A DNA stretch of 31,847 nt from Promethearchaeota archaeon. Its GTDB lineage: Archaea > Asgardarchaeota > Lokiarchaeia > Sigynarchaeales > SOKP01. The translations under genes were made by a program, and so were the position numbers. Positions 7,039 through 23,867 of the stretch are shown here, piece by piece. Each line of letters begins with the position of its first letter. Positions within the stretch are counted from its first letter, which is position 1. The notes below the pieces were generated by a model. That model ran no database searches. It saw only the letters and a program-made list of their open reading frames with translations, and was not told the origin of the DNA. The stretch lies in assembly GCA_030620005.1 (NCBI GenBank), contig JAUXAJ010000023.1, positions 1-31,847 of the forward strand. The letters are read 5' to 3'.

Positions 7039-8886
7039 TTATAAACTAGATATAAGCTTTCTAATTTCATTTATTTTTAAAGAAATCTCCACTAATCTAC
7101 CTTTTAACTTATTGGAACGACTTTTATACTCCTGATCGTTTATTGTTCCTTCTTGATAACTCGTTTCTAACGCTTTAAAACTCCTTTCGAGAGAATATCT
7201 TTTTCCTTCGAGAGCAATTAATTCTTGGTACAAGGAATCCTTATCTCTCGGTAAATCTTCAATATTGATTGAAGATATGTCGTCGTCGGATGGCTCAGTA
7301 GTATTAAATCCAAAAGGTGTAAAGGTTATCTTCTGGTCAAAGTCAACTCCTCGCTTTTTGCTTTTTTCTTTTCGCATTTTTGTGCTTTTTGCAATTATCA
7401 TGTCTAAAGATTCGTGTGTTTCGGCAGGTTGTTGGACTGCTTTATCTCCAACCGAAGAAAAAACATTAAACAAGTCCGTAGCGCTTGATTTAATTGATCC
7501 TATTTCAGACTTTTCAACATTTATTGCCGTTATTTTTGGTTTTTCAGCAATGAAAGGAACTTCTTTGGATTCCTTGGACGGAACGGGCTTCTTAAAAGGC
7601 TCTTCAGTAACAACGGGCATGATTTTTGGTTTTTCAAATAGGTCAGATACTCGCGAAGGCTCTTCAGTAACAACGGGAATGATCCTTGGTTTTTCAAGTA
7701 GGTCAGATACTCGCGAAGGTGATTCTGTAACAACGGGCATGATTCTTGGTTTTTCAGGTAGGTCAGATAATATATTTTCTGATTTTTCAAGTTGCTCGAT
7801 CTCTATTGGCGGTTCTTCTGTAATAATTTGATCGGTTACTGGTTCATTAGAAACTCTTGAATCTTTTGTTGACACTTCGCTTGTTTCTACGGAATCATCA
7901 CCTGCCCCTTCTTGGAACGACGTAGCACCAGCAGGTGGGGGTGATACTTCAGCAAGTTTTTGTGTTGGATGTGTTTCTATATTTTTATTTATTAACTCTT
8001 GTTTGTCTTGAATTGAATCATCACCAATATTTTCCGGAGTAGCAGGAATTGACGGAGGTGAGGGTGCCGGTGAGCCCTCAATATTGATTTGAGGCTCATT
8101 AATATCGATTTTTGTATAAAATTGGTCATCGGGTTCTAAAGATGTAAATGAACTTGGCTTACCTTCTAATTTTGATTTTTTAATTGTCTCTAAAGAGTGT
8201 TTCAATTTTTCTATTTCTTTTTTAACACTATAAGAGTCAGATTTCTTAACATCTAGTCTTTTGTCTTCACTTCTTGCTTTAATTTTAAGCTGGGGAATTT
8301 TTTGGGGTTTTTTTAAAACGGGTATTTTTATTTTTGGAGTTGGTAATTTTGAGCCCTTAATAGGAGTTATTTTTTGAATTTTCCCTTTATTTGACAAATT
8401 TTCAAGCGTTTTATCCTTATTTTTAAGTTTTTTTTGAAGAGACTCAATTTTTTCTTTTAAAGAACCTATTTCACCTTCAAATTTTTCAGTAACCTGAGCA
8501 ACGATCTGTGAAATATCAATTTTAACAGATTCCGTTTTCGTCTCAATTTCCTTAGGTTCAATTTTCTCCACGATTTCTTCAAAAATCTCTTCTTGATCTG
8601 TTTCAGTTTCGATAATATTTATGAATTTTTGAATGTTTTGCGATAGATCCTTCACTTCCTTGAACCATAAGTCTAAGGTATCCCAATTTTCTAAATTGTC
8701 GATAATTATATCCATTAGACCACTTAATTTGATGTTTTTTCCCGAAGATTTTAAATTTTTGAAACTTTCAATCAATTTCTCCCTTGCTTCCATTTCGTCA
8801 TCCGGCGTTGGTAAATTTTCTTTTTGCTCAGTGAGGAATAGAAAAAGCTCCTGAATTTCCTTAAAAGAATTTTCTACATCGTTCAT
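7039..8886 (-). CDS. Long disordered/coiled-coil protein with three 20-residue repeats
   Basis: A 615-residue protein that I cannot assign to a named family. Residues 1-100 are predicted helical, and about 130-165 form a heptad-like coiled coil. The centre (about 165-520) is rich in Pro, Glu, Lys and Ser and is probably disordered. It contains three near-identical 20-residue units (core Glu-Lys-Pro-(R/K)-Ile-(M/I)-Pro-Val-Val-Thr-Glu). The last 70 residues form a helical hairpin resembling a short domain common in archaeal proteins (Leu-Glu-x-Lys ... Tyr-x-Glu-Gly-x-Ile-x-x-x-Glu-Tyr). There is no signal peptide or membrane segment. The architecture suggests a scaffold or adaptor. It converges on nadE and its promoter lies in the 628-base gap to the right. 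Confidence 0.7.
   Translation of the reverse strand: MNDVENSFKEIQELFLFLTEQKENLPTPDDEMEAREKLIESFKNLKSSGKNIKLSGLMDIIIDNLENWDTLDLWFKEVKDLSQNIQKFINIIETETDQEEIFEEIVEKIEPKEIETKTESVKIDISQIVAQVTEKFEGEIGSLKEKIESLQKKLKNKDKTLENLSNKGKIQKITPIKGSKLPTPKIKIPVLKKPQKIPQLKIKARSEDKRLDVKKSDSYSVKKEIEKLKHSLETIKKSKLEGKPSSFTSLEPDDQFYTKIDINEPQINIEGSPAPSPPSIPATPENIGDDSIQDKQELINKNIETHPTQKLAEVSPPPAGATSFQEGAGDDSVETSEVSTKDSRVSNEPVTDQIITEEPPIEIEQLEKSENILSDLPEKPRIMPVVTESPSRVSDLLEKPRIIPVVTEEPSRVSDLFEKPKIMPVVTEEPFKKPVPSKESKEVPFIAEKPKITAINVEKSEIGSIKSSATDLFNVFSSVGDKAVQQPAETHESLDMIIAKSTKMRKEKSKKRGVDFDQKITFTPFGFNTTEPSDDDISSINIEDLPRDKDSLYQELIALEGKRYSLERSFKALETSYQEGTINDQEYKSRSNKLKGRLVEISLKINEIRKLISSL
7607..7786 (-). repeat. Three 60-base tandem repeats inside the coiled-coil gene
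   Basis: Three head-to-tail units of 60 bases (about 7607-7666, 7667-7726, 7727-7786), each encoding 20 residues of the disordered region. The first two are nearly identical in DNA, including the CAGATACTCGCGAAGG segment; the third diverges at its end. The unit length keeps the frame. Confidence 0.85.
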
Positions 8887-9514: not shown

Positions 9515-12500
9515 ATGATATATTTTAATTTGAAAAAGAAACATAAGGGAATAATATTAATCTTGCTGTTCGGGTTAACCACATTAATTTTCGGTTTTCT
9601 TCCCATGAATGATGGCAACACATTGGATAACAATTCATTCAACATCGACACCGATCAATCTAAAGCTATTGAACTTCCAGTACAAGACGATAGAAGTCCT
9701 GAGTCAAGCGAAATTACCAGTGACGAATGGTGGGATAGTTCTTTTAGCTATAGACGATTAATCAATGTTACCAATCCATACGGAATTGATTTCGTAAATT
9801 ACGGCGTAAACGTAACTTTTAATTATGACGAGTTGGTTTCAGAAGGCAAACTAAGAAGCGATTTATACGATATTAGGGTCGTGGAAAACGGTATTCCAAG
9901 AAAATACATTTTCAAAATAGATTACCCTTCTGAAAACTACGTAACAGTTTTCTTTAACGTGAATATTACAGTGTCAACGACCGATAAAGACACGTACGTG
10001 TATTTTGGAAATAGTGGTGCTTCTGATAATCGAGCTAGTGGTGCAACAGCTTCAGATAGTTTTGGATGGATTAAGAATGGCGATTTCGAATTAGATTATA
10101 GCACTGATACGACATATAATCCATTTGGATGGACTTTTACCCACGATCCGGTTGATTACATCGACGGAACTCTAATTGAAACAGCTACAGACGCAACTGA
10201 TTCTTCTGCGGGAAGCATTGCTTTGTTTGAAAATAAAGTAGTTAGTGGTCCATCTGGAGGCGAACGAGTTGCAAGCGGCAGTTATTCCTATAAGTGGGGT
10301 TCAAATCTTAATACTTTAACAACTGGCATCATGGGATGCCATGATTATGCGGGAGTACTATATTCCAATGTTTTTACGGTTCCAAATGTTACGGGAGGTG
10401 GCCTGGAACTAAACATTTTCCGCAACATTAGAACGTACAGGTTCGAACATAATGACGTAGCAAGACCGATTGATACTGATGGATATTTCATAAGACTAAG
10501 CAAAGCATCGTCTTATGGATCCGATCCTGACGATCATGTAGTAGTCGATGGTGGCAACGGATACAAGGAAATATATGGGGGATACGCGACCGCTGAATTA
10601 GTAGAACAAGGGCAAAGTGGCAAATTTAAACTTACATGGTATAATGACGAATTATTAGAAAAACATTATCATGATATTGTCACTAAAGATACTGATTCTA
10701 CCTCAATAAATGATGGGCAATTAACTGGATATATCGATGGTTATAGTTTAACCGAGTTCATGGGACAAGAGGTATTCCTTGAAATAGGAGTATGGGGCGA
10801 TGAGAGGGCGGACTATAACGTACAAGATGATGGCAAGTATAACAAGGCAGCATTTTTCAACATTGACGACATCAGATTTAACTATTGGCTGGAAACAGAT
10901 ATAAATGAAGTCCAACGACAGCAATCTGAAGTCACCATTGTAACGACGGATGTGGATGGTCGACTCGTTCCAAATGCAGAAGTATTCTTTGTCAATGACA
11001 CTTCGGGAGAAGTCAAAAAAACAGGATTCACCGGCCCACTAAACGCGTCAAAAACCTTTTCATTAAGCAACGGCGTTTATAACATAACGGTTAATTATTC
11101 TTTAAGCAGCAACTTGAAAGAAGTTGTATACAATAGTAGTACATTTAACGAAATAACTTATTATTTTATTGGTGGGGCATATTCGTACGTATTAAGACTT
11201 AATTTAACGACTATAGATTTTGAAATAGCAGACACGGACGGAAATCCGTTAACACTTGGATATGTTAACGTGAGTTATTATAAAGGAAGCGACGTCTTAA
11301 AGAAATTAAATCTTGATTCCTCTTACGGAACCGCTTCATTTTGCTGGTTAAATCGGTCTAGTTATTATTACGAGGTGTATTACGACAACGACGATTATGC
11401 TAAATACAAGAATCCGACTTCTTTAGTAAACGGAACTTATACTCATACATCGATTTTTGATAAAACTCAAAGGTCTTATAGCAATATTCTTTGGGTAAAT
11501 CAAACCAATACTTATAACCCAGCACTTAATCAATACCATGTTGATGAGGAATCGTATGCCAATGGGTCTTTATTAGGCCCATGTAACAAGAAAATAATTA
11601 ACGCCACGATTTCGCTTACCGATATGGGTGTTTCGCTCAACTACGTAAAAGTCTATTATATTGACAGGGATGGTAATTATGGAATAGATAATTTGATTTA
11701 TTCAAAAACCGATTATTCAAGTCAAAACTCAGACACGGTTGTTATCGATGTGAAAAACCCGCAAACGCCATGCGATAATCTAGAAAGCGATGGATGCGAA
11801 GTTTACGGGTTCTGGATTGACATTGAGGGAACTAACCAGACGGGTGTACGGTGTGACGGTATCATCGAAATAAATACTACAGAAACAATTAACATCTATA
11901 ATAGAACGGCGTTAGCTAAATTAAATATAAGATTCGTAAGAAATTTGACGAACGAAATACAACCCGTGCTTTTACAATATATTTACGTGAATTATACAGA
12001 TGAATATGACTATATCGCCAAACTCTATACAAAGGCAGATAAAGACGGTTACGCTACTGGTGTTGTAAATACTGAAATACCATTCTGGTACTTGAAAGAC
12101 AAGGATTACAACTTTACAATAAGATATTATAATGAACAAAAGGACTTCAACATTTCCACTTCAACAGAATCTGATTATTGGAATTATTGGGGACTGGCGG
12201 AACAAGAACAAATAATAAGGCTCAATAATAGCGCTACAATTTATTTTAACCTTCACCTTGCGGCAGACGATCCATTAGAAAATGCAACATCTAGATTAGA
12301 GACAATATACTCGGTTAGTTCTGTAGTATGGGGTCAAAGCATTAGGTTAGAAGTTAATTATTCGTATTCCATAGATAACGGTGAAACATGGATCCCTTTA
12401 GATGATCCTGAAGAGATTACTTGTTCTGTAATAAGATTGAGTGATCAGCAAGATATGTTCACAGAAGACATGATAGAAGGAAATGGAGATGGAAATTTTA

Positions 12501-14020
12501 CAGTAACCATTAATTCAGGCAGATTATTTGCTGGAAGTGATGGAGTGTATTATTATCTTGATATAAATGTCGTTCACGGATATGGAGTTCCAGAATTTTC
12601 CCAAGTATCTGTATTTGTGGATTCCGTATCAACCGCCATAAGCTCACACACATATAGCCCTACAAGCATTTCTGCCACATCGAAAACAGCATTTTCACAG
12701 TATTATGACGAGTTAATCAATATAACCATTAAATATTGCAGATCCGATACAGATGCTTTATTAGGAGATGCTTCTCTCAATCATACGTGGCTTTCTAGCG
12801 AAAAAGTAATAAACGAAGATCCAATTAACGACGATTATTTCACCTTTACAATCAATACATCGCAAGTTGCAAGTATTGGTATAGAGATAATTCAAATTAC
12901 CGCTGAACTTGACAATTATTCGTCAAAAAGTCTTACAATTACTCTCGAAATCCTTGTAAGACCCACGTCCATTAATGGAACAGCAATTTTATTGCATAAC
13001 TCAACGAGTATATGGGTTAACGATTCTTTTGTATATATATATCGATATGTTGATACATTAATACCTTCAAAAATAGGAGAAGCTGTTGAAGCAAAGTTCT
13101 ATTGGTATAAACTGGATAACCAGGGAAATCCTATTGGCGATCCAAGTCCCGAAACTGACATGGTTAAGACGTCAAAAGACGATTATAGACTAGACTTTAA
13201 AACTGAAGATAAGCAAGTTGGAGATTACGCGATTTTTATTACCCTGCAAAAAAGTAATTTTGAGGCTAGAAATGCTTTTATTGATCTAAGAATTAGGTTA
13301 AGACAGTTTACATTAAGCTTAGACTCAAAGAATAATCAGACCACGAAAATAAGTGTCATTAAAGGTTATGCCATCGTAATGGAACTCACTTTAAATCGTG
13401 TCTTAGACCCGACTAGTTCTTCTTCTGATAAATCAATTACAACACAAGCATCTGCTCCTTTAACTGGCGCCAAAGTAACATTAACTATAAATGAATTCGC
13501 AAATAAAACCTTTAAATTTACTGAAATTGGAAGCGGACTCTACAGATTAATACTAAATACCTCAGATCCATCTTATGAAGCGTTTTTTGCATCTCAAACT
13601 CTTACTGGAATCATTACGATAGAAAAGGAAAATTACGTTACTCAAACAATAGATATCACGATCGTCGTCGGAATGGACGAATTAATACCAGGATTTCCAA
13701 CATTTTATTTGCTCCTACTTATAATCGCAATCGGCACAATTGTGGGAAGTTTGACAACATATAGGTATGTTCAAATAAGGTCCGTTCCAAAATTTGTCAG
13801 GAGAGTTAAACACATGAAGGAAGCCGTCAAAAAGAAGCACGTCATTCCTGGATCTCTAATATATCCTTCTAAAGATGTTTTTTACGTGAAACAGTTTAGA
13901 AATAAATGGAACATGTTAGGTTTGTCTTTGGATAAAATAATGGGCGTCGGATTAAAAAAAGAGAGTAAATTAAAAGAGCTCAAGCAGAAATTAAAAACGC
14001 TTGATAAGGGTGATGCGTAA
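9515..14020 (+). CDS. Giant surface protein: DUF2341-like head, C-terminal membrane anchor and basic tail
   Basis: A 1501-residue exported protein. Residues 7-30 are a basic-then-hydrophobic signal or anchor. From about 71, Trp-Trp-x-x-x-Phe-x-Tyr-Arg-Arg-Leu-Ile-Asn-Val opens a DUF2341-like domain ending in Val-Tyr-Phe-Gly-Asn-Ser. Next comes a beta-rich, possibly carbohydrate-binding-like part, then several segments that look like Cna-B/Ig-type modules (for example Asp-Gly-Arg-Leu-Val-Pro-Asn-Ala-Glu-Val). Many Asn-x-Ser/Thr sites suggest heavy N-glycosylation. A single span near residues 1390-1415 (Phe-Pro-Thr-Phe-Tyr-Leu-Leu...) is followed by about 85 mostly basic residues that should lie in the cytoplasm. 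It is likely a cell-surface or S-layer-like receptor or adhesin. Its stop codon overlaps the start of the next gene (TAATG), pointing to one transcript and a shared role. Individual module names are uncertain. Confidence 0.8.
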   Translation: MIYFNLKKKHKGIILILLFGLTTLIFGFLPMNDGNTLDNNSFNIDTDQSKAIELPVQDDRSPESSEITSDEWWDSSFSYRRLINVTNPYGIDFVNYGVNVTFNYDELVSEGKLRSDLYDIRVVENGIPRKYIFKIDYPSENYVTVFFNVNITVSTTDKDTYVYFGNSGASDNRASGATASDSFGWIKNGDFELDYSTDTTYNPFGWTFTHDPVDYIDGTLIETATDATDSSAGSIALFENKVVSGPSGGERVASGSYSYKWGSNLNTLTTGIMGCHDYAGVLYSNVFTVPNVTGGGLELNIFRNIRTYRFEHNDVARPIDTDGYFIRLSKASSYGSDPDDHVVVDGGNGYKEIYGGYATAELVEQGQSGKFKLTWYNDELLEKHYHDIVTKDTDSTSINDGQLTGYIDGYSLTEFMGQEVFLEIGVWGDERADYNVQDDGKYNKAAFFNIDDIRFNYWLETDINEVQRQQSEVTIVTTDVDGRLVPNAEVFFVNDTSGEVKKTGFTGPLNASKTFSLSNGVYNITVNYSLSSNLKEVVYNSSTFNEITYYFIGGAYSYVLRLNLTTIDFEIADTDGNPLTLGYVNVSYYKGSDVLKKLNLDSSYGTASFCWLNRSSYYYEVYYDNDDYAKYKNPTSLVNGTYTHTSIFDKTQRSYSNILWVNQTNTYNPALNQYHVDEESYANGSLLGPCNKKIINATISLTDMGVSLNYVKVYYIDRDGNYGIDNLIYSKTDYSSQNSDTVVIDVKNPQTPCDNLESDGCEVYGFWIDIEGTNQTGVRCDGIIEINTTETINIYNRTALAKLNIRFVRNLTNEIQPVLLQYIYVNYTDEYDYIAKLYTKADKDGYATGVVNTEIPFWYLKDKDYNFTIRYYNEQKDFNISTSTESDYWNYWGLAEQEQIIRLNNSATIYFNLHLAADDPLENATSRLETIYSVSSVVWGQSIRLEVNYSYSIDNGETWIPLDDPEEITCSVIRLSDQQDMFTEDMIEGNGDGNFTVTINSGRLFAGSDGVYYYLDINVVHGYGVPEFSQVSVFVDSVSTAISSHTYSPTSISATSKTAFSQYYDELINITIKYCRSDTDALLGDASLNHTWLSSEKVINEDPINDDYFTFTINTSQVASIGIEIIQITAELDNYSSKSLTITLEILVRPTSINGTAILLHNSTSIWVNDSFVYIYRYVDTLIPSKIGEAVEAKFYWYKLDNQGNPIGDPSPETDMVKTSKDDYRLDFKTEDKQVGDYAIFITLQKSNFEARNAFIDLRIRLRQFTLSLDSKNNQTTKISVIKGYAIVMELTLNRVLDPTSSSSDKSITTQASAPLTGAKVTLTINEFANKTFKFTEIGSGLYRLILNTSDPSYEAFFASQTLTGIITIEKENYVTQTIDITIVVGMDELIPGFPTFYLLLLIIAIGTIVGSLTTYRYVQIRSVPKFVRRVKHMKEAVKKKHVIPGSLIYPSKDVFYVKQFRNKWNMLGLSLDKIMGVGLKKESKLKELKQKLKTLDKGDA

Positions 14021-15981
14021 TGCCAGTAGGAATTGTTATCATGAAATGGGATGAAAGAGTGGGCACAGAAATAGTAGCCAAATATCCGCGCGAAATTGTT
14101 ATTACGGATAAAACATTGATGCAAGTTTATAGCACGCATGAATACAGTGGCGATACGGGGATGATCAGTATGATGGTTGGAGCCTTAAATATTGCCTCCT
14201 ATTATACTGGGGAAGAACAAGGCCTATACATGATCTTACTCTTAAATTTAGACGATGATCCCGATTCATACGAAGGAGGTTTGGCAGATTTCGCTCAAAT
14301 AATTCTACAAAACCTTGATGATAGAAACTACGTAAACATGATTCCTTCGCTCTTCCAAAGATTATCCGTGTATCCAACATTTAACGACGAACAACTACTC
14401 ATGATAACTTACGAAGATGAAATTAAAAGGATGATAATTAACCGTCTTAGAGAAGAAGGAGTAGTTTCTAAATCGGAATTGATGGTTTGGTTGAAAGATA
14501 AATATCAAGAAGGATTCGTGGATACAGAAGGTGTGGTAACAGATCTTATTAAACGTGAAATAATAAAAGGAGCATCAATAAAAGGAATGGTTTCAGAATC
14601 CGTTTTTCTCACTTACGATATTTTAATAACAAGAATACCACCCACCAAGATTTTAAAGAATCCCGCTGAACGAGGTCTACCCGCAGAATTAGTGGAGGAT
14701 TATAAAGCGGAAGTAAAAAAGTTTTTTCAGACTTATCGCCCATCGGAAGATGATAATCTCAGTATTATTAAAAGCCTAATTAATCCACAAGTTTATGAGA
14801 CGATACGCTTACTAAGAATGTCAATTGTTACTAGAAATGAACTTGAAAAATTGAAAAAAAAGGGTGTCGATGATATTGATGACGTGTTAAAAGAACTTTG
14901 GGATAATGAAATGATTCAAGTGCTACGTGATGACCGAGATAACGAATATTTTGCCTTACTATCAAATTTCTTTATAGGACTGACTTTTCCAAAGTATATT
15001 TTAAGTGTTCTTAAAGAGGAGTACGAGCAAAAATCCAAGTCTAACCCGGTTTTGTTGGAATATTTCAATGTGCTTGAAGACACCTATCTTGACATGAAAG
15101 CAAGAGAAAAAGAAGAGAAGGCTGCTAGAGAAGGAGCTGCTGTAAAAATAGCCGAAGGTGTAAGATCAAAATTAAAAACTTCAATGTTAAAAAGAAGTAA
15201 AATGGCTGAAGAAAAAGCAGTTGAAAGAATAGAAAAAGCAAAAGAAAATGCTGTTAAGGCTGAAGAAAATGCTAAGGAAAAAGCTGCCTGGGCGCTGGAA
15301 AGATCAAAGAAAAAAGCGGCTAAAGCCGAAGAGAAGGCAAGAATAGTTGCGACAAAAGCAAAAATAAAAGCTAAATTAATAGCAGTAAAAGCAGAACAAA
15401 AAGCAAAGAAAAAAACCGAAATGATAAAGAAAGCTCAAGAGAAAGCATACATGGCAAAAGTAAGAGTTCAGACGCAAAAAGAAAAAATGAAAGCAGAAGA
15501 AATAAAATCAAGTGAAACGGCCGAAAAAAGAGCGGAAGCAAGAGAAGATAAAGCTGAATTAGATGAAGAAAACGCAAGAGCTAAAGCAGCAAGAGCAGAA
15601 GAACAAGCAATCGAAAAAGAAAAAATGAAAGCGGAAAAAGCAGAAGAAAAAGCAAGAGGAAAGGCAGCAAGAGCGGAAGAAAAAGCCAAGGAAAAGGTTG
15701 AAAAAGAAAAAGCGACAATAATTGCAGCAGAAACAAGAGCAAAGGAAAAAGCAGCAAGAGCGGAAGAAAAAGCAAGAAAAAAGGTTGAAGAAGAAAAAGC
15801 TAATAAAATTGCAGCAGAAGAAAAAGCAAGAGAAAAGGCAGCAAGAGCGGAAGCAAGAGCCAAGGAAAATGCTGAAAAAGAAAAAGCTAAAAAGATTGCA
15901 GCAGAAGAACAAGCAAGAGAAAAGGCAGCAAGAGCGGAAGAAAAAGCCAAGGAGAAGGCTGAAAGAGAAAAAGAATCATGA
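14020..15981 (+). CDS. Longin/roadblock-like and winged-helix protein with a very long Lys/Ala/Glu helix
   Basis: A 653-residue cytosolic protein translated from an ATG that shares a base with the previous stop codon. Residues 1-125 (Gly-Ile-Val-Ile-Met-Lys-Trp-Asp, then Lys-Tyr-Pro) resemble the profilin-like longin/roadblock domains that are frequent in Asgard archaea and regulate small GTPases. This is pattern recognition only. Residues about 130-205 and 250-325 look like winged-helix units. From about 365 to the end there is almost nothing but Ala, Lys, Glu and Arg, predicted to be one continuous helix or coiled coil, with three 29-residue repeats and a partial fourth. I infer an adaptor that contacts the basic tail of the surface protein and reaches far into the cytoplasm. 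There is no membrane segment. Confidence 0.72.
   Translation: MPVGIVIMKWDERVGTEIVAKYPREIVITDKTLMQVYSTHEYSGDTGMISMMVGALNIASYYTGEEQGLYMILLLNLDDDPDSYEGGLADFAQIILQNLDDRNYVNMIPSLFQRLSVYPTFNDEQLLMITYEDEIKRMIINRLREEGVVSKSELMVWLKDKYQEGFVDTEGVVTDLIKREIIKGASIKGMVSESVFLTYDILITRIPPTKILKNPAERGLPAELVEDYKAEVKKFFQTYRPSEDDNLSIIKSLINPQVYETIRLLRMSIVTRNELEKLKKKGVDDIDDVLKELWDNEMIQVLRDDRDNEYFALLSNFFIGLTFPKYILSVLKEEYEQKSKSNPVLLEYFNVLEDTYLDMKAREKEEKAAREGAAVKIAEGVRSKLKTSMLKRSKMAEEKAVERIEKAKENAVKAEENAKEKAAWALERSKKKAAKAEEKARIVATKAKIKAKLIAVKAEQKAKKKTEMIKKAQEKAYMAKVRVQTQKEKMKAEEIKSSETAEKRAEAREDKAELDEENARAKAARAEEQAIEKEKMKAEKAEEKARGKAARAEEKAKEKVEKEKATIIAAETRAKEKAARAEEKARKKVEEEKANKIAAEEKAREKAARAEARAKENAEKEKAKKIAAEEQAREKAARAEEKAKEKAEREKES
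15661..15978 (+). repeat. 87-base tandem repeats coding the Lys/Ala helix
   Basis: Units start at 15661, 15748 and 15835, with a partial one at 15922. Each full unit is 87 bases (29 codons) and opens Lys-Ala-Ala-Arg-Ala-Glu. The A-rich purine bias of this stretch creates long spurious open frames on the other strand. Confidence 0.85.
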
Positions 15982-18090: not shown

Positions 18091-19584
18091 TCAATAAAAG
18101 GGAACTCTCTTATTTTTTTTTATTTTTTCAGAAATGTATTTTTTACAATTATTTCTTTTTGATGTTGCAATTTTTTGGAGCATTGATAAGCCAGGTTTTA
18201 CATCGCTAATTCGTTTTGACTCAATTAAATCGCTTGAGATTAAGTCTTCGTAAATTTTTTTACCTTTTTCCGTTCTGATAATTACTGTATTCCAACCTGC
18301 TGGTGACCCAATAGAACCAATCGAAATATCAGCAGATTCAGATGTAAGATCGTAACACATTTCACAATCTTCTCTTGCCAAGTTACTAATTTCTTTAATA
18401 GATATATTTAATTCTCCGTCATCATTGGTATGAATGAAAAATTTACCTTTATTTATGTCCATTTTTTTAACATTTTTAACATCCACATTCAATTTCTTGC
18501 ATATTTCCAATAGACCCATGTATGGAAAAGATTCCATGCAAAAAATTCCAATTCTAAGTTCGATGTTTATCAACGAAGGAACATTGATGGCGTATATTTC
18601 AGATTTTAATAACGCTTGCATCATGCATGGCACACCAACTATCGCCAATCTTTTCCCATAAAGCTCTTTTTGGTTTAAAAGTTTAAGAGTAGGATTATTG
18701 ACGTATTTAGTCCCTGTAGTCAAGAGGATGTCCTCTTTATTTTTAATTAATAACGGTTCTGGACGCCATCGAGTAGTGCTCATTTTAGCACCTAAAGCGT
18801 AATCTATTTTATTTTTTTCGAAAAGATAATGAAGACAAGTACTTGACATGCCTCCATCTTGGCACTGGCTTGAAATTTCATCAATTTTTGTTCTAGCGGA
18901 ATATATTTCCAAATAATGCCCAATATTAGAATATTCCTTTAGTTCAGAAGTGTTTTCTTGAGTCATATTTAATAGTTTTTCGGGCAGGAATGTCCTGGGG
19001 CAGACGAAATAGCACATTCCACAGCGAATACACTTTTCTTCATCAATTTTCCCAAATCCATTGTAAACATTAAGACAATTAACAGGGCAAACACCAGCAC
19101 ATAAACCGCAACCCGAACAATTTTTTGAATCGTAAATAACTTTAACTGGCTCAAAAATACTTTTTTGAGTAGACGAATCTTGATTAGTAATAGTTATTTT
19201 GATGTCATTTAAAATTGAACCATGAATGTTTTCATCATGACCTTCATTATTATTACATGAATCTTCTATTTCAATAAGTTTTTCAGCCTTTAACAATTCT
19301 AATAAGCTTAAAGCCTTACTAACTTTAATTGAGTTCTTTTCTGAAAATTTTCTAACAATATCAAGATTATTCAATTGATTCAGCTTTAAATATTCGTAGA
19401 AAGACACTTTTAACCGTTCTTCTTTAAAAACTTTAAAGAAAATTTCATGATATTGAGATTCATCGTATACGCCCGCTTCTAATATTTCCTTTTTAGCGTC
19501 AATTAAAACTCTAATCCTATATGAATCTAAAGTTGTTGCTACATTTTTTAAAAAATCTCTCGAAAACTTTCCTTCAAAACTCAT
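18091..19584 (-). CDS. FrhB/FdhB-like iron-sulfur flavoprotein with N-terminal ferredoxin domain
   Basis: A 497-residue protein. Residues 1-120 are an extension of unclear nature with a possible winged-helix part. Two [4Fe-4S] motifs follow (Cys-x2-Cys-x2-Cys-x3-Cys-Pro, twice, about residues 155-195). The F420 hydrogenase/dehydrogenase beta-subunit domain comes next, with Cys-Gln-Asp-Gly-Gly, Val-Gly-Val-Pro-Cys, Gly-Ile-Phe-Cys-Met-Glu-Ser-Phe, Cys-x-x-Cys-Tyr-Asp-Leu-Thr and Gly-Ser-Ile-Gly-Ser-Pro-x-Gly-Trp-Asn-Thr. Family members use FAD to move electrons to or from F420, ferredoxin or similar carriers. Lying downstream of hdrA and mvhD on the same strand, it is probably the input/output subunit of that complex. 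cofC at 25125 supports the presence of F420 in this cell. No UGA interrupts this gene. Confidence 0.85.
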   Translation of the reverse strand: MSFEGKFSRDFLKNVATTLDSYRIRVLIDAKKEILEAGVYDESQYHEIFFKVFKEERLKVSFYEYLKLNQLNNLDIVRKFSEKNSIKVSKALSLLELLKAEKLIEIEDSCNNNEGHDENIHGSILNDIKITITNQDSSTQKSIFEPVKVIYDSKNCSGCGLCAGVCPVNCLNVYNGFGKIDEEKCIRCGMCYFVCPRTFLPEKLLNMTQENTSELKEYSNIGHYLEIYSARTKIDEISSQCQDGGMSSTCLHYLFEKNKIDYALGAKMSTTRWRPEPLLIKNKEDILLTTGTKYVNNPTLKLLNQKELYGKRLAIVGVPCMMQALLKSEIYAINVPSLINIELRIGIFCMESFPYMGLLEICKKLNVDVKNVKKMDINKGKFFIHTNDDGELNISIKEISNLAREDCEMCYDLTSESADISIGSIGSPAGWNTVIIRTEKGKKIYEDLISSDLIESKRISDVKPGLSMLQKIATSKRNNCKKYISEKIKKNKRVPFY

Positions 19585-19617: not shown

Positions 19618-19654
19618 TGTGTAATCCCGAAAACTCTCACAAGAGTTTGTCACA
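19618..19654 (-). promoter_or_regulatory. Candidate SECIS hairpin after mvhD
   Basis: On the minus strand, 43 bases past the mvhD stop, UGUG pairs with CACA as an outer stem and AAACUC pairs with GAGUUU as an inner stem with a UUGUGA loop. Between them lie UGAC on the 5' side and GGAU on the 3' side, which can form U.U, G.A, A.G and C-G pairs, the kink-turn quartet of eukaryotic SECIS elements. Lokiarchaeal SECIS elements are reported to resemble the eukaryotic type. The inner stem is short, so this is a candidate only. Confidence 0.42.
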
Positions 19655-19696
19655 TTTCCAACTAATATTTACTTGAAAAGATCATTCAATTTCGGA

Positions 19697-20125
19697 TTAA
19701 ATTTTTGGTAGAGGAGGGAGTGCTTTGATTTTTTTTGTAATATCTTTTATAGAAGCCAAAAATTTTTCTACTTCTGCTGCGCTACAAAAGTATTGTTGAA
19801 TTCTATCTTCTGAAATTCCTAAATGGTTGAATATCTTCTTTAAGAACAATACATGCTCGTACGTATTCATGTTACCCATGCCAAACTCACATTCTCCTTC
19901 TTTTCACGAAATAATTGCCACGCCATCGGCCCCGTTTAAGAAGCATTCCATGATTAAATGAATCCCTATCCTGCCCGTGCATCGAACTCTTATAAGATGA
20001 AAACCCGTAGAGTAAGATTTTCTAGTAGTTCCTGTTAAATCAGCTACGGAATATCCTCATTTTTCACATCCAAAAGCAATTATTTTTCTTTGTTTTTCAA
20101 TATTTATCTCGCTCGTTAATTTCAC
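19697..20125 (-). CDS. mvhD: MvhD-type iron-sulfur subunit, selenoprotein with two in-frame UGA codons
   Basis: Read through two UGA codons, this is a complete 142-residue MvhD (delta subunit of F420-non-reducing hydrogenase, VhuD in its selenium form). Residues 15-23 read Ile-Ile-Ala-Phe-Gly-Cys-Glu-Lys-Sec, matching the F-x-C-x-x-C motif with selenocysteine at the last cysteine. Then come Gly-Tyr-Ser-Val-Ala-Asp-Leu-Thr-Gly, Ile-Arg-Val-Arg-Cys-Thr-Gly-Arg, Asn-Gly-Ala-Asp-Gly-Val-Ala-Ile-Ile-Ser, then Sec74-Lys-Glu-Gly-Glu-Cys in place of the Gly-Cys-His-Pro-Gly-Asp-Cys cluster motif, and the usual helical C-terminus. MvhD carries a [2Fe-2S] cluster and passes electrons to HdrA. Start: GTG at 20125, 11 bases after the hdrA stop, with GAGGTG overlapping it; no ATG is possible. 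Automated calling would keep only the last 60 residues. Confidence 0.9.
19904..19906 (-). other. In-frame UGA in mvhD, codon 74 (predicted selenocysteine)
   Basis: This UGA sits between Ile-Ile-Ser and Lys-Glu-Gly-Glu-Cys. It corresponds to the first cysteine of the C-terminal cluster motif (Gly-Cys-His-Pro-Gly-Asp-Cys) of ordinary MvhD. Confidence 0.88.
20057..20059 (-). other. In-frame UGA in mvhD, codon 23 (predicted selenocysteine)
   Basis: This UGA follows Phe-Gly-Cys-Glu-Lys and precedes Gly-Tyr-Ser. It aligns with the last cysteine of the F-C-C-x-x-C motif of MvhD. Confidence 0.88.
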
Positions 20126-20136
20126 CTCTAGTTTTT

Positions 20137-22131
20137 TTATTCGTTAACAATTTTTTGCGCTTGCTGAATGAATAAATCTTCAAATTTCCCAATTCCTTTA
20201 ATTTCTTCAACAATTTGCTTGTTTCTGTAATATTTTAAATCAATTGCTCTTGCTGGACAAGAAGTAATGCACGCCCCACATCCTTTGCATTTCAATTCGA
20301 CTACAACGGCAATTTCGACGTCGTTTACTTTTATGGCTTCATAATTACAAATTTTTTCGCATCTCCGACAACCCACACATTGATATTCATTTACTTCTGC
20401 TATGATTAACTCTTGATATATTGTATCATTAGATAATAATATTGACGCTTTACTAGCCGCCGCTAGAGCTGTTGATACAGAATAGGGAATATTTTTGGGT
20501 CCTGCAGCATATCCACAAATATAAATCCCCATATTTTTTGTTTCTTGAGGCTTTAAACATCCATGAATTTCAGAGAGAAAACCATTCGGGTCTTTTTCAA
20601 GACCAATTATATCGATTATTTCTTCAGTCCCCTTAGATGGCGTTATCCCCGTTGATAATACAATTAAATCAAAATCACTATAAGTTATTTCGTCTAACAT
20701 CGTATTATCGTAATATAATCGCATCACGCCGTCTTTATTCATTTTAATATCTCCTGGCTTTCCTTTTACGAACATTATATTGGTTTCTCTAATTTTTCTG
20801 TAATATTCTTCACTATTCTTATCTGTAGTTCGAATGTCAATGTAAAAAATAACTATATCCATTTCATGATACTCTTGTTTTAGTAATTGCGCATTTTTTA
20901 ATGCCACACTACAGCATACTCCAGAACAGTACGGAATACCTCTCAAAGATCTCGAACCAACACATTGTATCATGGCCACCCTTTTAGGTCTTTTTCCGTC
21001 TGAGATTCTGTAAGCATGTCCCTCAGTTGGACCAATCGGACTTAACATTCTTTCTAGTTCTATTTGAGTTATTACATCTGGATACAAACCGTACTTATAT
21101 TCATTGCTGTTAATGATAGGATACTCGTCCCAACCAGTTGCTACAATTACAGAACCAACTTTTATATTGATATATTCAGGTTCTTGTTCAAAATTAACAG
21201 CTTCAGCTGGACAACTTCTTTGACAATTCTTGCAATCTATGCAGACACTTCTATCTATTATCGCCAACTTAGGTACTGCTTGAGGGAATGGTATGTAAAT
21301 TGCTTTTCTTTCACCCAACCCCCTGTCGAACTCATTTGGCACGTTTATTGGACATTTAAGAGTACATAATCCACATCCCGTGCATTTACTTTCATCAATA
21401 TAACGCGGATTTTTTTTAATATTGACATCGTAATTTCCAGTAATCCCACTAAATTTTATGACTTCGCTATTCGCAAGTAAAGTTATATTAGGGTGTTTAG
21501 AAGCATTTACCATTATAGGGGCTAAAACTCATATACCACAATCGTCGGTTGGAAATATTCTATCAAGCTGAGCCATTTTTCCGCCAATTGTTGCTTGTTT
21601 TTCGACAAGATACACGCGGATTCCTTGGTTAGCCAAATCCAACGCAGCGTTCATTCCAGCTATTCCAGCACCTATAACCAAAGCCGCTTTTGTTATTGAA
21701 ATTTCTTTACGGGGGATAGATTCTAGTTCACGCGCCCGGTTTACTCCACCATTTATTAATCTCATTCCCTTCTCCGTGGCCCGCTGTTTCTCTCCAGAAT
21801 GAACAAAAGAGCAATGTTCTCGTAAATTAACCATTTGAAAATAGTAGGGGTTCAATCCTGCTTCAGCTAAAACTGCTCTATAAGTGGGCTCGTGAATTTT
21901 TGGAGTACACGCTGCAACTACAATTCGATTTAAATCTAATTCTAGAATGTCCTTTTTGATAATTTCCTGTCCTGGATCGCTACAAGTAAAGTTATTACAT
22001 CTTGCTATGATAACATTTGGTAAGGTTTCAGCAAATTCTTTTAAAGCGTCGCAATCAACAGTAGCACCAATATTTACACCTCATCTACATATATAAACGC
22101 CTATTCTAACATTGGTCTGATTATCAGACAT
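20137..22131 (-). CDS. hdrA: Heterodisulfide reductase subunit A, selenoprotein with two in-frame UGA codons
   Basis: Read through two UGA codons this is a full 664-residue HdrA, the FAD subunit that bifurcates electrons. The N-terminal cluster domain begins Arg-Ile-Gly-Val-Tyr-Ile-Cys15-Arg-Sec17-Gly-Val-Asn-Ile, where the family has Cys-His-Cys-Gly. The FAD-binding Val-Ile-Gly-Ala-Gly-Ile-Ala-Gly is near 159. Phe-Pro-Thr-Asp-Asp-Cys-Gly-Ile-Sec201-Val-Leu-Ala-Pro follows, with selenocysteine at a conserved cysteine. Two ferredoxin motifs come next, then the thioredoxin-reductase-like core and a C-terminal pair of [4Fe-4S] motifs (Cys-x2-Cys-x2-Cys-x3-Cys, twice). The ATG has an AAGGA ribosome site. 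The 162-base gap to the divergent gene should hold the promoter. HdrB and HdrC are not nearby, as is common for Asgard HdrA-MvhD units. Confidence 0.93.
21529..21531 (-). other. In-frame UGA in hdrA, codon 201 (predicted selenocysteine)
   Basis: This UGA lies between Asp-Asp-Cys-Gly-Ile and Val-Leu-Ala-Pro, where HdrA proteins have Cys (Asp-Asp-Cys-x-x-Cys). Both flanks stay in one frame. Confidence 0.9.
22081..22083 (-). other. In-frame UGA in hdrA, codon 17 (predicted selenocysteine)
   Basis: This UGA follows Tyr-Ile-Cys-Arg and precedes Gly-Val-Asn-Ile. It replaces the second cysteine of the N-terminal Cys-x-Cys-Gly motif of HdrA. Confidence 0.88.
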
Positions 22132-22476: not shown

Positions 22477-22574
22477 ATTAATTAAATTAAAGTACTATTT
22501 TTAATTATTTTCTAAAAAAAATTTTAATAAATAATAAGAAAAAAAAGTTCAATTAATTGGAGAGAAAATTTAAA

Positions 22575-23867
22575 TTGCTTGATATAGAACTTTTTCGAAC
22601 GAATGTAGATGAGATAATTAAATCAGAAAGAAATAGGTTTAAAGATACAACGAACGTTGAAAAAGTATTAGAATACGATAAAAAATGGCGTGATGCATTA
22701 GGAAAATTACAGGAATTGCAACGAAAGCGAAACGAAATATCAACTCAAATTGGTAAATTTAAAAAGGCAAAACTGGAAGCCAAAGCGAAAGAAGCTATAA
22801 AAGCTTCAAAGGAGATCAAGGCTCAAATTGAGGAATTTGATGAAAAGAAATCAGAGTTCTTTGAAAAAAGAGAAAAATACAGATATATTGTGGGAAATAT
22901 ATTACATGAATCAGTTCCCACGGCAGAAAATGAAGAAGGTAACGAAATTGTAAGAGAAGTAGGAAAATTGCCAACGTTTAATTTCAAGCCTTCATCCCAC
23001 GTCGAGTTAATTGAAACAATTGGTGGCGCAGACACTAAAAAAGCTTCAGAAGTAGTAGGATCAAGGTTCTATTACCTTAAAGGAGATCTTGTAATACTCA
23101 ACTTGGCTCTATTGAGATTTGCTTTAGATAAACTAATTATTAAGAATTTTATCCCAATATGGACCCCTTTTTTTGTTAAGCACGAGATTATTAAAGCAGC
23201 CGCAGAACTAGCAGATTTTGAGGACATGCTCTATAAAATTAAGGACGAAGATTTATACATGATAGCTACTTCCGAACAGAGCATTGCAGCATATCACTAC
23301 AACGAAATAATTGAATCAGAAAGATTACCCTTGAAATACGCAGGTGTTTCATCGTGCTTCAGGAGAGAAGCCGGATCACATGGCAAGGATACTCTAGGTA
23401 TTTTTCGAATACACCAATTTGAAAAGGTAGAACAATTTATTTTTTGTAATCCTGAGGATTCGTGGAAATTTCACGAAGAACTGATTTTAAATGCAGAAGA
23501 GCTCTATCAAGAATTAGAACTGCCGTATAGAATCGTCAGTATAGCTTCAGGAGAGCTTAATGATAACGCCGCAAAAAAATACGACTTGGAAGCTTGGTTT
23601 CCTGCGTCTAAAACTTATCGTGAATTAGTATCGTGTAGTAACTGCTTGGATTATCAAGCGAGAAAATTAAAAATTAGAATGGGAAAAGTAGGGTCAAATC
23701 AAGCAAAAGAGATTCTACACACCCTAAATTCTACAGCAATCGCCACAGAACGTACGATAACTTGTATACTAGAGAATTATCAAAACGAAGACGGTTCAAT
23801 AACAATTCCCAAGGCTCTTCATAAATATTTTCCAGGAAGGAAAAAAATAATCATGTCCATTAAATAA
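22575..23867 (+). CDS. serS: Seryl-tRNA synthetase
   Basis: A class II synthetase of the common SerRS type. It has an N-terminal long antiparallel coiled coil (about residues 25-110, Lys/Glu/Ala-rich), motif 2 (Ser-Cys-Phe-Arg-Arg-Glu-Ala-Gly-Ser-His-Gly) and motif 3 (Asn-Ser-Thr-Ala-Ile-Ala-Thr-Glu-Arg-Thr), with an active-site Ala-Thr-Ser-Glu-Gln that recognises ATP and serine. It charges tRNA-Ser and, in cells with selenocysteine, tRNA-Sec, so it is a required first step for the hdrA and mvhD products next to it. I prefer the TTG at 22575, which yields the canonical Leu-Asp-Ile-Glu-Leu-Phe-Arg start and has GGAGAG 10 bases upstream. A TTG at 22557 would add six residues. Confidence 0.95.
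   Translation: MLDIELFRTNVDEIIKSERNRFKDTTNVEKVLEYDKKWRDALGKLQELQRKRNEISTQIGKFKKAKLEAKAKEAIKASKEIKAQIEEFDEKKSEFFEKREKYRYIVGNILHESVPTAENEEGNEIVREVGKLPTFNFKPSSHVELIETIGGADTKKASEVVGSRFYYLKGDLVILNLALLRFALDKLIIKNFIPIWTPFFVKHEIIKAAAELADFEDMLYKIKDEDLYMIATSEQSIAAYHYNEIIESERLPLKYAGVSSCFRREAGSHGKDTLGIFRIHQFEKVEQFIFCNPEDSWKFHEELILNAEELYQELELPYRIVSIASGELNDNAAKKYDLEAWFPASKTYRELVSCSNCLDYQARKLKIRMGKVGSNQAKEILHTLNSTAIATERTITCILENYQNEDGSITIPKALHKYFPGRKKIIMSIK

Follow-up and report, generated by a model that had tools for sequence, protein, structure and literature searches.

A predicted three-way-junction SECIS element shared by the hdrA-mvhD pair of an Asgard archaeon

How are four in-frame UGA codons, spread over two neighboring genes, decoded when a single candidate recoding signal is visible nearby? 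The question is raised by a 31,847-nt stretch of DNA from a Promethearchaeota archaeon (assembly GCA_030620005.1, contig JAUXAJ010000023.1; the whole of this stretch is referred to as the window), which carries the genes hdrA and mvhD on its minus strand. An earlier note on this DNA had predicted selenocysteine (Sec) at HdrA codons 17 and 201 and at MvhD codons 23 and 74, in genes 11 nt apart and served by one visible hairpin resembling a selenocysteine insertion sequence (SECIS) after mvhD. Translation with TGA read as a residue confirms the four codons and the spacing. Judging from comparison with related loci, we consider it highly probable that hdrA and mvhD are cotranscribed and that one SECIS element behind mvhD, shaped as a three-way junction, directs Sec at each of the four UGA codons, two per cistron.

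Conserved UGA codons and one element per locus

We fetched 77 related loci (68 Lokiarchaeal and 9 bacterial), which together with the window make 69 archaeal loci. HdrA codon 17 is an in-frame stop in all 66 archaeal loci where it is aligned, and codon 201 in 68/68; the 56 adjacent archaeal mvhD genes all have a stop at codon 23, and 53 of them have one at codon 74, with Cys at the latter site in L002, L009, and L013. Nearly all in-frame stops in the best matches are TGA (287/288, the other being TAA). The bacterial homologues carry Cys at both HdrA sites (9/9) and, in adjacent mvhD genes, at both MvhD sites (7/7), in line with the earlier claim that each UGA sits at a family Cys position. Across loci, HdrA UGAs fall at positions 17, 50, 75, 201, and 303, each of which is UGA or Cys in the window, with four single exceptions. 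Because the UGA sites are conserved across loci, chance and sequencing error are excluded as their origin; as read from these alignments, the four UGAs occupy Cys sites and are conserved among relatives, and both proteins combine homology with in-frame UGA (putative Sec) at Cys sites, the combination looked for in a selenoprotein.

The identity of the two products is clear from profile and structure searches. MvhD matches FlpD (PF02662, E 1.8e-36), and HdrA contains Fer4 and FAD domains in Pfam and aligns with the solved HdrA chains 9sfi_A (E 6.9e-215) and 5odc_A (E 1.6e-209). A non-standard residue (X), presumably Sec, stands opposite HdrA 201 in 9sfi_A and opposite MvhD 23 and 74 in 9sfi_K; opposite HdrA 17, the solved 9sfi and 5odc chains have Cys. 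We note in addition a second hdrA-mvhD paralogue (L047-L063, L065), with three to five UGAs in hdrA and two in mvhD, in which UGA (putative Sec) also occurs at Cys positions 50 and 75 and up to seven UGAs fall to one element.

Elements in the related loci were anchored by stem scoring, that of L013 by hand. Candidate elements were then located with a covariance model, R1, built from 33 aligned elements at the 3' ends of relatives, with the window left out. In the 31.8-kb window, R1 gives one match up to E 10, directly behind mvhD (E 7.9e-14), as the earlier note had proposed. Over 78 sources it gives 62 matches up to E 1, of which 55 immediately follow mvhD and 6 follow an hdrA that has no mvhD beside it; 33 of these 61 placed elements built R1, and 28, the window's included, are independent of it. 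The remaining match is weak (L022, E 0.072). R1 finds no element between hdrA and mvhD in any of the 78 sources and no match in the bacterial Cys loci (0/9), and the eight archaeal loci without an R1 match (L018, L020, L030, L045, L053, L069, L075, and L076) end before the element would be readable. A second SECIS in or after hdrA was likewise sought with R1, and none was found near hdrA in the window or in the first loci.

The geometry of the locus is correspondingly uniform. From the hdrA stop to the first aligned mvhD codon there is a gap of 0-48 nt. In 52 full-length pairs, one element stands behind three UGAs in 3 loci, four in 24, five in 13, six in 11, and seven in 1, and the distance from the first UGA to the AUGA of the SECIS core is 2336-2411 nt (2398 nt in the window). 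The window's AUGA begins 12 nt past the mvhD stop (19697 to 19685) and about 450 nt past that of hdrA. The reach across a gene boundary that the earlier note had called unusual is thereby supported, at 2.4 kb from the first UGA. By conservation alone, 2.4 kb and a cistron boundary appear compatible with recoding, a distance beyond the range of 70-1500 nt cited for archaeal elements in the text of one review (PMC9499178); as presented by Peiter and Rother (PMC9622424), experiments in M. maripaludis found no strict distance limit at 520-679 nt. Downstream of the element stands an frhB-like gene in 51 of 55 pair loci, and serS lies divergent upstream in 38 loci, window included, so that hdrA, mvhD, and frhB are probably one transcript.

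Shape of the element

Unguided folding of a MAFFT alignment of 61 elements by RNAalifold yields a structure of three helices in which P1 encloses P2 and P3; 14 of its 15 pairs show changes on both sides. P2 bears the AUGA...GA core and the A-rich loop of the published Asgard model. We scored the given structure by five measures against 500 shuffles. In group A, where 32 of the 33 rows are distinct, the share of paired cells is 96.2% and the covariation score 0.316, each value being reached by 0/500 shuffles; for all five measures, 0/500 shuffles reach the observed value both in group B (17 rows) and in the 62 R1 matches, an alignment that is fitted to R1 and includes the weak L022 row. In that last alignment, P3 shows changes on both sides in 5/5 pairs, with 90% of its cells paired.

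A hairpin with a GC or GU loop follows the AUGA arm in 95/95 elements versus 509/1900 shuffled flanks, and in 73/95 versus 165/1900 it is combined with a P1 that reaches 5 bp or more. A P3-like hairpin alone also occurs in 1272/1900 shuffled flanks and is therefore not telling, and in at least nine of the 95 elements (L050, L051, L052, L054, L056, L057, L060, L065, and L180) the script's best hairpin lies outside the consensus P3 register. The evidence for P3 is its covariation and its loop. Read comparatively, the element is a three-way junction composed of a basal stem (P1), a kink-turn-like AUGA...GA arm (P2), and a second arm (P3).

P3 might instead be a hairpin in its own right, such as a transcription terminator or a processing site, that happens to come after the SECIS. 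It does stand at the element's end, and the frequency of similar hairpins among shuffled flanks (1272/1900) would suit such a reading; however, P3 is enclosed by the covarying basal stem P1, it lies within the apparent operon ahead of frhB in 51/55 pairs, and its GC/GU loop recurs in all 95 elements (against 509/1900 shuffles), those behind selD and frhA included. An independent P3 thus seems to us rather unlikely.

The P3 loop contains GC, or GU in the case of the window. No hairpin behind the window's mvhD is as perfect as P3 (19647-19632), for which reason the hairpin seen in the earlier note may be P3. That note is borne out in that a single element is present, but this element consists of a basal stem bearing two arms. 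As a candidate for the SECIS core itself, the 19647-19632 hairpin was rejected: it is an accessory arm, and the AUGA core lies just upstream (19685-19682). Coordinates are collected in Table 1.

Table 1. Positions in the window of the two genes, their UGA codons, the predicted SECIS element, and the gene behind it.
Feature	Position	Strand	Remarks
hdrA	20137..22131	minus	664 codons, two in-frame UGA; TGA read as residue; ends UAA
hdrA UGA codon 17, putative Sec	22081..22083	minus	Sec inferred
hdrA UGA codon 201, putative Sec	21529..21531	minus	Sec inferred
hdrA/mvhD spacer	20126..20136	minus	11 nt; no room for an element
mvhD (frhD/vhuD family)	19697..20125	minus	142 codons, two in-frame UGA; start GTG 20125, stop TAA 19697
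mvhD UGA codon 23, putative Sec	20057..20059	minus	Sec inferred
mvhD UGA codon 74, putative Sec	19904..19906	minus	Sec inferred
Whole SECIS element, R1 match	19624..19699	minus	65.4 bits, E 7.9e-14; begins at mvhD stop codon
P1 basal stem, 5' strand CCGAA	19691..19695	minus	pairs with 19631-19627; covariation
AUGA of SECIS core	19682..19685	minus	partner GA 19651-19650
P2 arm	19655..19679	minus	UUUUCAA (19679-19673), UUGGAAA (19661-19655); R1 alignment, covariation
P2 loop, 11 nt, GUAAAUAUUAG	19672-19662	minus	
P3 second arm	19632..19647	minus	AACUCU (19647-19642), loop UGUG (19641-19638), AGAGUU (19637-19632); R1 alignment, covariation
P1 basal stem, 3' strand UUCGG	19627..19631	minus	R1 alignment
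frhB-like gene, presumed third cistron, behind element	18091..19584	minus	PF04432 E 2.3e-41, PF04422 E 4.1e-17

Probable use of one element by both genes

Six loci (L011, L012, L014, L016, L039, and L040) hold an hdrA that has no adjacent mvhD and retains two or three UGAs. There the element starts at the stop codon of hdrA, with the first UGA 2000 nt upstream of the AUGA; hdrA therefore uses such an element. These copies lack the serS and frhB neighbors of the pairs and so resemble a derived copy that moved away from mvhD, or lost it, and kept the element; an HdrA tree (quick method, midpoint root) groups them as a single clade (support of 100 in the Shimodaira-Hasegawa-like approximate likelihood ratio test, SH-aLRT) within a clade holding paired hdrA (96). 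That the paired hdrA uses the element behind mvhD follows by elimination, as the only copy found lies beyond mvhD.

The elimination would fail if each gene had a signal of its own, namely, a divergent SECIS in the leader or coding sequence of hdrA, with the element behind mvhD serving mvhD only. A SECIS in the 5' untranslated region is described for Methanocaldococcus fdhA in the review text (PMC9499178), and tandem genes of the UGA-UGA family introduced below each have their own element, so that neighbors need not share. Against this, R1 has no further match in the window up to E 10 and none between the two genes anywhere in the 78 sources, and the mvhD-less hdrA has a standard element behind the gene rather than in its leader. 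We regard separate signals as very improbable.

Sec machinery was searched for in seven relatives and 14 control genomes. For Sec synthase (TIGR03531), 7/7 relatives have a match above the cut-off versus 1/14 controls. A PSTK-like gene is present in 7/7 relatives at E 6e-40 or better, with weaker matches in 9/14 controls, and a SelB-like gene near E 1e-70 in 6/7, a model that the controls match in 14/14 cases, as expected for elongation factors. The gene selD carries an in-frame TGA in seven of eight genomes, three of these among the seven relatives. That the hdrA UGAs are read through or reassigned (as a sense codon throughout, or by leaky termination) and yield another residue with no SECIS, as the several in-frame UGAs per operon (up to seven in relatives) might suggest, is scarcely credible when the UGAs of HdrA hardly ever stand elsewhere than at Cys positions 17, 50, 75, 201, and 303, UGA is the real stop of mvhD in 18/55 pair loci and of the window's frhB-like gene, and Sec synthase occurs in all seven relatives.

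From what the comparison brings out (four conserved UGAs at Cys sites, a single element, and its shape), we infer how a single element behind mvhD would serve both genes. The hdrA and mvhD genes, probably with the frhB-like gene, would be cotranscribed, placing the element between the second and third gene. This one SECIS would direct Sec insertion at each of the four codons, up to 2.4 kb upstream and across the gene boundary; lying outside both reading frames, it could act on any UGA in the two cistrons. The role of P3 may be to orient P2, setting its geometry, or to bind a separate factor. The gene products would belong, as subunits, to an HdrA-MvhD-FrhB electron-transfer complex with Sec in place of Cys.

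Several observations weigh against this account and should be set beside it. In L013 the core (8465-8468) reads AUGC rather than AUGA, yet hdrA keeps both UGAs and mvhD one; an assembly error or a decaying element is a possible cause. The mvhD-less copies, standing in another gene context, show only that hdrA needs an element. In group A, two of the five measures do not rise above shuffles, further pair types being reached by 469/500 and pairs with changes on both sides by 53/500. Folded alone, the window sequence is not significant (z -0.60; 53/200 shuffles as good), and Rfam at gathering and relaxed thresholds gives no SECIS match in the region; the structural evidence is for these reasons comparative. 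A lokiarchaeal SECIS was non-functional in M. maripaludis, as stated in the text of PMC11881835. The machinery counts, finally, apply to seven relatives rather than to the window's own genome, and among those relatives PSTK is below its cut-off in 7/7, the SelB model is over its cut-off in 1/7, and tRNA-Sec is over the Rfam cut-off in 1/7 only, beside Sec synthase, with weaker tRNA-Sec matches in five more relatives and in all 14 controls.

Relation to described elements and wider occurrence

Sharing of an element by these genes is already in print, since Huang, Xiao and Zhang 2024 (PMC11227280) state that Asgard hdrA/frhD genes almost always have a single eSECIS-like structure in common. What the earlier note treated as a peculiarity of this locus is, by that account, the rule for Asgard archaea; its observation is confirmed and its interpretation partly supported. 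The window's element resembles the Asgard type I eSECIS-like element as described there in its AUGA...GA core, upper stem, and A-rich apical loop of 8-20 nt, and in its location 3' of frhD, common to hdrA and frhD. In terms of the rules given in that description, the window has the core 5'-GA...[G/A]A-3' preceded by AU (19685-19682, 19651-19650), a stem of 7 bp and a loop of 11 nt (rule: 7-15 bp with at most two mismatches, loop of 8-20 nt), and a location inside the interval that opens 30 nt before the 3' end of the gene and closes 600 nt after it. It differs in P3: the published type I description lists core, upper stem, apical loop, internal loop, and lower stem and does not name such an arm.

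Other descriptions of SECIS elements likewise have no counterpart to P3 in their text. A 2026 review (PMC13188914) names core, upper and lower stem, loops, and a ministem for type II, with no second hairpin in that account. The Lokiarchaeota SECIS, as portrayed by papers that cite the original work, shares lokiarchaeal origin and a eukaryote-like core with ours; a review citing Mariotti et al. 2016 (PMC9499178) gives it only one apical loop, whereas two arms and two loops are supported here. Methanogen GAA_A elements (PMC13188914, PMC9622424, PMC11881835) are similar in their 3' location and, according to those texts, in that a single element can suffice for two UGAs within one gene, but by description they are a single hairpin with a GAA_A internal bulge beneath consecutive S-S pairs (PMC13188914). 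Eukaryotic elements share the AUGA/GA quartet, unpaired apical As, and action at a distance (PMC13188914); compared by description, they differ in being SBP2-dependent (PMC9499178) and in having two helices and no P3 (PMC13188914). Papers including PMC11881835 and PMC9499178 state that no archaeal SBP2 is known, no search for one having been made here, and that a protein able to bind an archaeal SECIS has yet to be found. Among the papers listed in literature searches, we found none on an archaeal SECIS with a three-way junction, although P3 may be present in earlier figures or supplements; relative to the texts cited, P3 and the three-way-junction shape would be the new part.

These comparisons invite a broader scenario, which we offer as tentative and think more probably wrong than right. 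The Asgard SECIS would represent an ancestral two-armed three-way junction, with P2 the kink-turn arm that became the eukaryotic SECIS and the GC loop of P3 a second recognition arm for an archaeal factor; P3 would have been lost in eukaryotes, the methanogen element might be a remnant in which P2 shrank and P1-P3 were kept, and one element would recode up to seven UGAs in two cistrons.

Across 148 genomes of the phylum, R1 matches 32 at E up to 1e-3 (with stricter filters), and HdrA has matches in 141. We examined 20 distant TGA-bearing HdrA loci from 13 genomes, hand-picked and thus non-random, 19 of them from 12 genomes without an R1 match and one from a genome with a match (G112). A stop occupies HdrA 17 in 18/20 and HdrA 201 in 20/20 of these loci, and MvhD 23 in 20/20 and MvhD 74 in 17/20. 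An AUGA arm behind mvhD was found by script in 17/20 and by eye in the other three, one of which has AGGA; the P3 hairpin follows in 20/20, with L159, L162, and L164 having been anchored by eye with P3 in view. The same pattern of AUGA arm and P3 is found behind selD (8/10 loci anchored) and frhA (6/7); L174 and L176 (selD) and L178 (frhA), having no confident AUGA arm, were dropped before the count of 95 elements.

R1 also points to further candidate selenoprotein genes, among them one family with adjacent UGA codons. In seven genomes it gives 37 matches at E up to 1e-3, and the frames upstream of 23 R1 matches comprise nine of mvhD type (one recognized from its tail only, the remainder being masked), one hdrA, three of a UGA-UGA family, seven that are small, membrane-protein-like, and contain UGA, and three cases with none. 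The UGA-UGA family (L108, L109, L194-L213) has two adjacent in-frame UGA codons (GC-UU-EK). It has 41 matches in 29/148 Asgard genomes, of which 38 hold at least two TGA and the other three end before the site, and both UGAs are present in 24/24 alignments over L194-L213. AUGA-type P2/P3 elements lie behind these genes, tandem copies each having their own. With no Pfam match, and absent from the seven families named in the text of Huang et al. 2024 (PMC11227280), it is apparently an undescribed protein family.

Several smaller observations concern the window and the additional elements. The seryl-tRNA synthetase (SerRS) gene of the window (22557-23867, plus strand) lies divergent upstream of hdrA, as it does at 37 related loci; in this pathway tRNA-Sec, too, is charged by SerRS. 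Two adjacent long frames on the plus strand (9515-14020 and 14020-15981; 1501 and 653 amino acids) have no Pfam match at E 1e-5. Small frames precede SECIS elements in L100, L101, L114, L115, and L118 (elements from 1501 onward). They combine a single predicted hydrophobic segment with a Gly/Asp-rich stretch and have a UGA close to the C-terminus, in the context GGU in L100, L101, and L118; these are possible new small selenoproteins. In L112 and L119, the frames preceding SECIS elements are small, with multiple hydrophobic segments and one or several UGAs, and in L106/L112 two elements lie 0.5 kb apart.

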